Assembly: GCA_902790935.1 (NCBI GenBank)
Contig: CADATP010000008.1
Location: 1-51,713, forward strand
Direction of reading: 5' to 3'
Source: an uncultured Lachnospiraceae bacterium
Lineage (GTDB): Bacteria > Bacillota > Clostridia > Lachnospirales > Lachnospiraceae
Length of the DNA stretch: 51,713 nt
Part shown: positions 8,402-45,991 of the stretch, one piece after another
Position numbering within the stretch: the first letter of the stretch is position 1
Layout of the letters: every line of letters starts with the position of its first letter
Program-made: the position numbers and the translations under genes
The notes under the pieces: generated by a model
The model's input: the letters and a program-made list of their open reading frames with translations, nothing else
Told to the model about the DNA's origin: nothing
Database searches by the model: none

Positions 8402-8427
8402 TCCTTTTAGATATTCATTCGAGTGAC

Positions 8428-8579
8428 GCTGCTTTGCATATATATGTCCTACGAGCACCGCCTCTCGGCTATGAAGTCCTCGTGGCAGCGGTACTAGACT
8501 CATACTTCGCTAATGCTCGTATTCGTCAAGTGCCGGCCTCGGACACATTGCTCTTAAGGACACATATATGTAAAGCAGC
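8428..8579. repeat. Structured dispersed element, copy A
   Basis: A 23-position outer stem (8428-8450 with 8557-8579; one mismatch, one G-U) and an inner GAGC/GCTC pairing enclose a core of about 95 nt. The core contains GCACCGCCTCTCGGCT (8455-8470), GTCCTCGTGGCAGCGG (8476-8491) and CCGGCCTCGGACA (8533-8545). The same three blocks in the same order occur on the minus strand at 45764-45858. The outer stems of the two copies differ in sequence but both pair. It carries no ORF and lies between asnB and glnN. It could be a non-coding RNA or a hairpin-type mobile element; I do not recognise a named family. Confidence 0.75.
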
Positions 8580-8655
8580 TGTGAAGAAAGAGAATTTATA
8601 GATAAAAGAAAAAAATACACAGACCCGAAGATAGAAGATAAAAGAAAAATAAGAT

Positions 8656-8728
8656 AAAAGCAAAAGCAAAAGCAAAAACAAAAACAAAAGCAAAAGCAAA
8701 AAACAAAAACAAAAGCAAAAACAAAAAG
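8656..8728 (+). repeat. Hexamer tandem repeat AAAAGC/AAAAAC
   Basis: Twelve units in tandem, mostly AAAAGC or AAAAAC, with one 7-nt unit (8698-8704). Further A-rich AGATAAAAG motifs precede it from about 8600. It sits 48 nt before the glnN start, in the presumed 5' UTR, and would form a long unstructured purine-rich stretch in the mRNA. Confidence 0.9.
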
Positions 8729-8776
8729 AGAATAATCATCTTAGATATAAATATTACACACCAGGAGGAAAAGGAA

Positions 8777-45732: not shown

Positions 45733-45887
45733 GGTTCGAGACCGCGCGCGGTATGCAATCCGGCAGCATGTCCGAGGCCGGTACTTAACGAAAACAAGCG
45801 AAGCGCTGTTTGAGTTTAGTTCCGCTGCCACGAGGACGCTGAAGCCGAGAGGCGGTGCCGGATGTATACGCACGTGGTATGCGAACC
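45733..45887. repeat. Structured dispersed element, copy B (inverted)
   Basis: On the minus strand this carries the same three blocks as 8455-8545: GCACCGCCTCTCGGCT, GTCCTCGTGGCAGCGG and CCGGCCTCGGACA. Its arms pair too: 45733-45738 with 45882-45887, and 45751-45765 with 45856-45869 (one bulge, one G-U). The arm sequences differ from copy A. The central loop includes AAGCGAAGCGCT. There is no ORF; it lies between purL and carA. Confidence 0.75.
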
Positions 45888-45906
45888 GTAACTTGGAAGA
45901 AATACT

Positions 45907-45976
45907 AACCGCCGATTTTCGGCTTCTCTACAATGGAGTAGAACCAGGGGAGAGGTGCGTTTATTGGCGGTTTTTT
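45907..45976 (+). promoter_or_regulatory. carA leader terminator (attenuator candidate)
   Basis: AACCGCC (45907-45913) pairs with GGCGGTT (45966-45972), which runs into six T (45971-45976) and then AAGGAG of carA. A competing hairpin GCCGA/TCGGC (45911-45923) would free the 3' arm. Another hairpin TCTAC/GTAGA (45927-45942) has the loop AATGGA. CCAGGGGAGAGGT at 45944-45956 loosely resembles a PyrR-binding loop, but not exactly. Regulator unknown. Confidence 0.5.
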
Positions 45977-45991
45977 AAGGAGACACACTGT

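Follow-up and report, generated by a model that had tools for sequence, protein, structure and literature searches.

The window, by which we mean the whole stretch of 51,713 nucleotides of Lachnospiraceae DNA that was analyzed, holds two hairpin elements, which were recovered at exactly the coordinates given in a preliminary description of the sequence (Table 1). Copy 1 is flanked by asnB and glnN, the latter being a type III glutamine synthetase gene by its Pfam domains, and copy 2 is flanked by purL and carA, with all four genes on the plus strand. As described, the copies are inverted relative to each other beside co-directional genes, they share three exact blocks in the same order (GCACCGCCTCTCGGCT, 16 nt; GTCCTCGTGGCAGCGG, 16 nt; and CCGGCCTCGGACA, 13 nt; on the plus strand for copy 1 and the minus strand for copy 2), and their outer stems differ in sequence with pairing kept in both. 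R2, the broader of two covariance models used below, matched copy 1 at 8441-8566 on the minus strand (92.4 bits, E 3.4e-30) and copy 2 at 45748-45872 on the plus strand (84.3 bits, E 3.4e-27). A GTNACTNAG-like terminus stands beside many copies of the element in the window's genus.

Table 1. Features of the two element copies in the window.
Feature	Position	Strand	Partner or basis
Copy 1, whole element	8428..8579	-	RNA-like fold on minus strand; stem ends directly visible
Copy 1, outer stem P1, 3' arm, copy-specific sequence	8428..8455	-	pairs with 8548-8579
Copy 1, outer stem P1, 5' arm	8548..8579	-	pairs with 8428-8455
Copy 1, small hairpin P2 with GAGA (GNRA) tetraloop	8460..8469; loop 8463-8466 read on minus strand	-	GNRA in 69/71 family members
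Copy 1, conserved P4 helix, GCCGGCACTTGACGA ... GAGTCTAGTACCGCTGC	8485..8537; variable tip hairpin 8502-8522	-	covariation
Copy 1, terminal motif GTCACT (sense direction), just beyond the arm	8422..8427	-	likeness to the genus terminus
Copy 2, whole element	45733..45887	+	RNA-like fold on plus strand
Copy 2, small hairpin P2 with GAGA (GNRA) tetraloop	45844..45853; loop 45847-45850	+	
Copy 2, conserved P4 helix	45776..45828; variable tip hairpin 45792-45811	+	covariation
Copy 2, terminal motif CGTAACTT	45887..45894	+	at and just beyond the end of the 3' arm

Two other stretches adjoin the copies. Positions 45907-45977, before carA, form a leader-like stretch (AACCGCCGATTTTCGGCTTCTCTACAATGGAGTAG ... 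TTGGCGGTTTTTT) that is a possible attenuator of carAB; it had no Rfam 15 match at the gathering score, is recognizable in genomes G013, G014, G012, G005 and G008 with or without an element copy, and is missing in G003. On the glnN side of copy 1, repeated AAAAGC/AAAAAC units fill 8655-8730; G013 lacks them.

Folding of single sequences on the proposed sense strand (144 and 145 nt) gave z = -6.6 and -4.4, with 0 of 200 shuffles each doing as well; the opposite strands gave z = -6.4 and -3.0 (0/200 and 2/200 shuffles), and because z was low on both strands this analysis cannot pick the strand. When the seven full copies of the window genome were aligned, 96.2% of 238 cells paired and 14 of 34 pairs had changed on both sides, in a test that favors the structure because the structure was derived from those same sequences. 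None of 500 shuffles reached four of the five measures applied to these seven copies, 201 of 500 reached the fifth (the number of pair types), and registers shifted along the alignment all fell far short of the true structure. Across 71 diverse members, read in the direction opposite to that of the seven-copy alignment, 19 of 23 consensus pairs showed double-sided, compensatory change, which bears out the earlier claim of a conserved core with covarying stems. The paired fold is not due to chance.

The fold consists of a long P1, a P2 of 2-3 bp with its tetraloop, a P3 with variable letters, and P4 (CCGGYACTTAGYGA ... GARCTTAGTACCG), which has two covarying pairs next to a GA/GA internal loop and ends in a variable hairpin at its tip. 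A longer P4 with an extra inserted stem was present in three loci (L057, L143 and L147). The arms remain paired in most copies, with 112 elements aligning arm to arm at a score of at least 10; a cruder walk along the predicted fold found at least 12 enclosing pairs in 103 of 148 elements and at most 8 in the other 45.

Three features argue that the structure-forming strand is the minus strand for copy 1 and the plus strand for copy 2. The P2 loop is GNRA (GAGA, GCGA, GAAA, GGGA, GCAA or GGAA) in all but two of the 71 members, namely L020, whose loop letters include GAGA with the stem unscored, and L161 (GATA). A conserved TC/TC loop becomes tandem GA on the proposed sense strand. Lastly, within the inner 32 nt of the arms, mismatches were more often G-U than A-C (75 vs 36; 69 of the 71 rows used), and by element the bias was 34 vs 11 with 24 ties (p = 0.0008, uncorrected for shared ancestry). 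It was gone beyond the inner 32 nt (G-U 20, A-C 27). The larger count of 112 elements, read in the sense direction, gave 117 G-U and 45 A-C in the inner 30 nt and a reversed sign farther out (44 and 69). A point against this assignment is that a conserved P4 pair often reads C-A in the proposed sense direction and G-T on the other strand.

These strand-specific features also bear on whether the element might be a pure DNA palindrome, with its covariation produced only by hairpin-templated mutation and its folded strand without function. The outer arms, which covary without strand bias and in blocks, behave as this reading predicts, and their pairing could rest on DNA processes alone. The conserved unpaired letters, the one-strand GNRA loop, the tandem GA loop and the wobble bias of the inner stem do not, and we regard the pure palindrome as very improbable for the element as a whole.

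We searched related genomes with R1, a covariance model built from seven copies of the window genome, and with R2, and both found many further copies. At E <= 0.01, R1 identified 16 copies in the window genome (which is 83% complete) and 25 in the relative G013; blastn of the window's own genome with copy 1 returned 14 matches, of which 8 were clearly the element (E 1e-7 or better) and 6 had E >0.1. With stricter filters, R1 matched 28 of 31 genomes of the genus, the window genome included, and 0 of 28 genomes outside it. This zero reflects the insensitivity of R1, since R2 was positive in two of those 28 (G031 and G032). R2 matched 170 of 299 genomes of the family, nearly all sampled at one per genus (139 of 245 of good quality), with 12 candidates scored per genome so that copy numbers are lower bounds; by genus, the element was present in 169 of 298 sampled genera of Lachnospiraceae. 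A class-wide sample gave R2 matches in 9 of 291 genomes, 8 within Lachnospiraceae and 1 outside.

A pattern scan of named genomes yielded at least 117 stretches, part of which are expected by chance; scanned with R1, 80 of these loci yielded 73 matches and the remaining 37 loci another 37. R2 confirmed copies in contigs labelled Butyrivibrio sp. CB08, Lachnospiraceae FE2018 and Bilifractor porci, in contigs of Hungatella sp. and [Clostridium] symbiosum (both MAGs), and once on a finished replicon, NC_012780.1 of Lachnospira eligens ATCC 27750, where two listed genes flank the copy and no annotated feature overlaps it, in a gene table that is incomplete and includes no RNA genes. With the L100 pair as query, no match was found in plasmids, and blastn found none in phages; another query returned two L. 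eligens megaplasmid records among 7 weak plasmid records at a permissive limit. Viral contigs were scanned by pattern as well, yielding 3, 1 and 1 stretches; the first three lacked an R1 match.

The preliminary description had left room for a trivial known repeat, and none matched. Rfam 15 gave 0 matches at the gathering score over the whole window, and copy 1, nine loci and a further fourteen, each scanned permissively, likewise had none at that score; at the element in the fourteen further loci nothing appeared even permissively. The only models to score at the element itself stayed far below their cut-offs: RAGATH-21 at copy 1 in the permissive scan (16.6 of 70.3 bits), and two microRNA models over the L054 copies, mir-315 (35.1 of 63 bits) and MIR2606 (33.9 of 139.7). 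In L441, a neighbor of the element at 2589-2789 scored as a T-box leader just below the gathering score (86.4 of 93 bits). A description of the element was not found in the literature searched, which included the accessible parts of PMC8632094 and PMC6429828, most subscription papers being beyond reach. The element is a previously uncatalogued repeat spread through Lachnospiraceae.

The two window copies had been taken to argue against a simple cis leader, and the wider family agrees, with no constant orientation to the downstream gene. Using a simple open-frame rule, we could call both neighbors for 103 copies: 44 were in the same sense as the genes, 33 were antisense, 18 lay between converging genes and 8 between diverging genes. 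Six of 116 copies were inside a long open frame. Of 50 copies, 25 fell on each replication strand, with the leading strand judged by local GC skew, and 26 vs 24 were split with respect to the majority gene strand. Orientation relative to both genes and replication thus appears random. A cis-regulatory leader or mRNA-stability element of the neighboring genes would explain the closeness to genes and why co-directional copies are the largest class, but the 33 antisense copies, the opposed window copies and the 26:24 split make this reading barely credible. The GNRA loop was intact in 44/44 co-directional copies, 29/33 antisense copies and 26/26 others; that 4 of 33 antisense copies lacked a clean GNRA, compared with 0 of 44 in the sense direction, hints that the direction of transcription may matter. 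Close pairs face apart in the RNA sense, head to head, in all 20 readable cases among the matches listed and in 10 of 11 by a strict motif census; tandem pairs occur in L161, L096 and L106.

The alternative half of the earlier proposal, a hairpin mobile element, gained support from sites at which relatives lack the element and from 8-bp target duplications in one lineage. The asnB-glnN gap contains the element in G013 and lacks it in G014, G029 and G012, a reading that leaves out the split G008 pieces. In the purL-carA gap, read by eye and leaving out L266, L268, L269 and L270, one copy is common to G000 and G013, a copy of another subfamily lies in the reverse direction in G014, G005 and G008, and no element is present in G029, G012, G016, G007 and G003. 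The asnB-glnN locus of G005 (L255) carries outer stem ends like those of copy 1 around a short loop that replaces the core, followed by an inverted full copy. We rejected the idea that the arms are taken from the target site, as the element-free sites read show nothing arm-like.

The target duplications were seen in G105, a relative from another genus in which 40 places were scored among 100 first-look candidates. Here the element is part of a unit of ~255 bp that is bounded by terminal inverted repeats and flanked by target duplications of 8 bp. Both ends, GTTACT..TCATGGGGTGGGGA, were present in 23 of 30 fetched copies at <=5 mismatches, and the flanking 8-mers were identical at 6 or more of 8 positions in 9 of these 23 (5 perfectly), compared with 1.0% of mismatched control pairs; three more copies look like duplications one base off. 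Target duplications of 8 bp are the mark of a cutting transposase that inserts double-stranded DNA, and together with the terminal inverted repeats they indicate that the element moves in G105 as double-stranded DNA. The stretches fetched around the G105 copies included one place with the ends but without the core, and one G000 site may carry an excision scar. In the window's own genus, flanking words of 7, 8 and 9 letters were shared in 55, 22 and 4 of 77 copies, with 41.95, 13.65 and 4.0 expected, a mild excess at 7 and 8 letters and none at 9, with no consistent position; this shared-word search of 77 copies thus gave no clear target duplications.

The mode of insertion matters for a rival in which the element is a single-stranded DNA hairpin of the REP/RAYT or attC type, whose fold an HUH or tyrosine enzyme would recognize as single-stranded DNA and not as RNA. 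GNRA-like loops, GA pairs and G-T wobble can form in DNA too, so the fold itself suits this rival. Within the genus, 9 of 31 genomes carry Y1 transposase genes, and these nine take in 6 of the 7 genomes richest in the element (at least 14 copies). Close copies are mostly head to head (20/20 among the matches listed, 10/11 in the census), as is often so in REP dimers. Against it stand the 8-bp duplications of G105 and the 25:25 split between replication strands, where single-stranded insertion would be expected to leave a lagging-strand bias. Moreover, R2 found 0 elements in the loci of the genus's 15 Y1 matches (~1.5 kb either side), and the RAYT-like Y1 gene of the window genome, which scored 74.6 bits with the REP-transposase model (below its cut-off of 80), adjoins a different short palindrome. 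We consider this rival unlikely, and RAYT was rejected as the mover since it is not linked to the element. In the 31 genomes of the genus, in which Y1 genes were searched, no transposase was linked to the element. Pairs of elements were also considered as ends of a gene-carrying transposon and rejected because the ~1-kb spacer of L092 holds no transposase; its gene is presumably panC, between panB and panD, judging by the translations.

How arms and cores change was compared within and between genomes. In G070, cores are near-identical while the outer arms differ and still pair in 6 of 8 copies, with outer flanks partly conserved. In an alignment of 21 G105 copies, from which the structure was also taken, 97.1% of cells are paired and both sides have changed in 19 of 84 pairs; in these copies, six varying neighboring pairs of one arm show double-sided changes with no one-sided standard intermediate. 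L498, a G105 copy excluded from this count because its right end is missing, shows mismatches between its arms at positions where the arms of the other copies match. For 10 of the 11 listed orthologues of G000 and G013, the tip could be measured and was at least 90% identical in 7 and different in 3. One of the three divergent pairs keeps arm stretches of 98% and 90% identity, and its G013 tip is the same as in a G000 copy from a different locus. The tip and arm patterns fit an exchange of core pieces between copies combined with a correction of each arm by the other, both of which we infer.

A host origin deserves weighing on the same evidence. In this reading the copies would be genes for a trans-acting RNA, an sRNA or ribozyme, multiplied by ordinary duplication, and the mobility in G105 would be secondary. 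Conservation of the core at a grade typical of RNA over many genera, in all gene orientations, is what such a family would produce. Its presence, however, varies site by site between relatives, the purL-carA gap is filled by different subfamilies in different species, genomes carry anywhere from 0 to dozens of copies, and a promoter common to the variable arms is probably not to be expected. We therefore find it improbable.

Both halves of the initial alternative between structured RNA family and hairpin mobile element thus found support, the RNA half from sequence covariation. Many dispersed copies lie in each genome in both orientations, and one strand forms a conserved multi-helix fold; it is shown in part that each copy has its own arm sequence, with pairing kept even beyond the reach of the strand bias, and likewise in part that core segments differ between some orthologous copies with the same arms. 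Our preferred interpretation, to which we give a probability of roughly 60%, is a small non-autonomous fold-back (MITE-like) transposon family of Lachnospiraceae whose apex carries a conserved, predicted folded RNA. An unlinked DDE-type transposase would move the element in trans. The two arms of a copy might correct each other through the hairpin, by template switching or inter-arm conversion, and cores might be exchanged between copies by ectopic conversion. The weakest step concerns the core, which may be kept by selection on a transcribed RNA; this putative RNA would most likely bind a protein, either the transposase itself or an RNA-binding protein of the host, and so favor the element. 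A MITE family with its core maintained as RNA is the most economical account.

A bolder proposal is a new class of selfish element, a DNA transposon that brings along its own structured RNA; this would work in trans, for instance as an RNA cofactor or decoy of the transposase or of a host RNA-binding protein, with arms diversifying per copy and the core spreading across Lachnospiraceae by homing-like conversion. We put it forward as a tentative possibility.

MITEs and fold-back elements (Correia, ERIC and BOX-like) are short, mostly intergenic and gene-free, with terminal inverted repeats and a target duplication. The element resembles them in being short, mostly intergenic and without an internal gene, and in the terminal inverted repeats and target duplication of G105; unlike them, it has a strictly conserved, one-strand branched core and arms that vary per copy yet stay paired. 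Integron attC sites have paired, sequence-variable stems with strand-specific unpaired bases, and their conserved part is the base. The element shares the first two properties, but its conserved part is the apex. In the accessible text of PMC3733652, REPs including the GTAG and CGTC types are 20-40 bp long with stems of 5-13 bp; REPs and REPINs with RAYT, as that text presents them, share with the element a palindromic, intergenic nature, head-to-head dimers and an unpaired tag beside the stem, from which it differs by its length of 150-260 bp, by 8-bp duplications in one lineage and in that no linked RAYT was seen. The mobile or repeat candidate MRSC-65-2 is described, in the accessible part of Narunsky et al. 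2024 (PMC11109978), as a single long stem with UYCCGG repeats in diverse phyla. As far as that part goes, both have covarying structure, dozens of copies and no consistent orientation, and both possibly act as DNA; by its description MRSC-65-2 is set apart from the element, whose core is branched and bears a GNRA loop and whose copies turned up almost exclusively in one family.

The element offers a natural test of how paired arms stay paired and of core exchange between copies, and equally of the possible dependence of a transposon on a structured RNA. Pipelines for RNA discovery should take note that DNA palindromes may account here for part of the covariation by which RNA families are recognized. 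It is also a repeat of more than half the sampled genera of a major gut family (169/298) that is without an Rfam match.

Several irregular copies and neighboring palindromes were encountered. Two copies are broken, L272 (G013 C23) and L301 (G000 C3); one of them is without its 3' half in the sense direction, and the other has been rearranged so that its own end recurs as an inverted repeat. A G012 subfamily (L307-L309, L311 and L323) has an extra tail of ~90 nt that ends in a similar GTCACTNAG terminus, the contig end falls inside this tail in L310, and some G012 copies form composites with an inverted second element. A second palindrome, GAAATCTGTCCCGAAGTTCT ... AGAAATTCGTGGAACATTT, is common to L291 (~2230-2480) and L298 (~2250-2450), with a terminator-like tip in one locus, and at the L291/L288 locus ~490 bp are inverted between two species. 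In L332, the RAYT-like Y1 gene of the window genome (1405-2244) has a AACCCCGTCCCC/GGGGACGGGGTT palindrome upstream, of which G013 contains two inverted copies.
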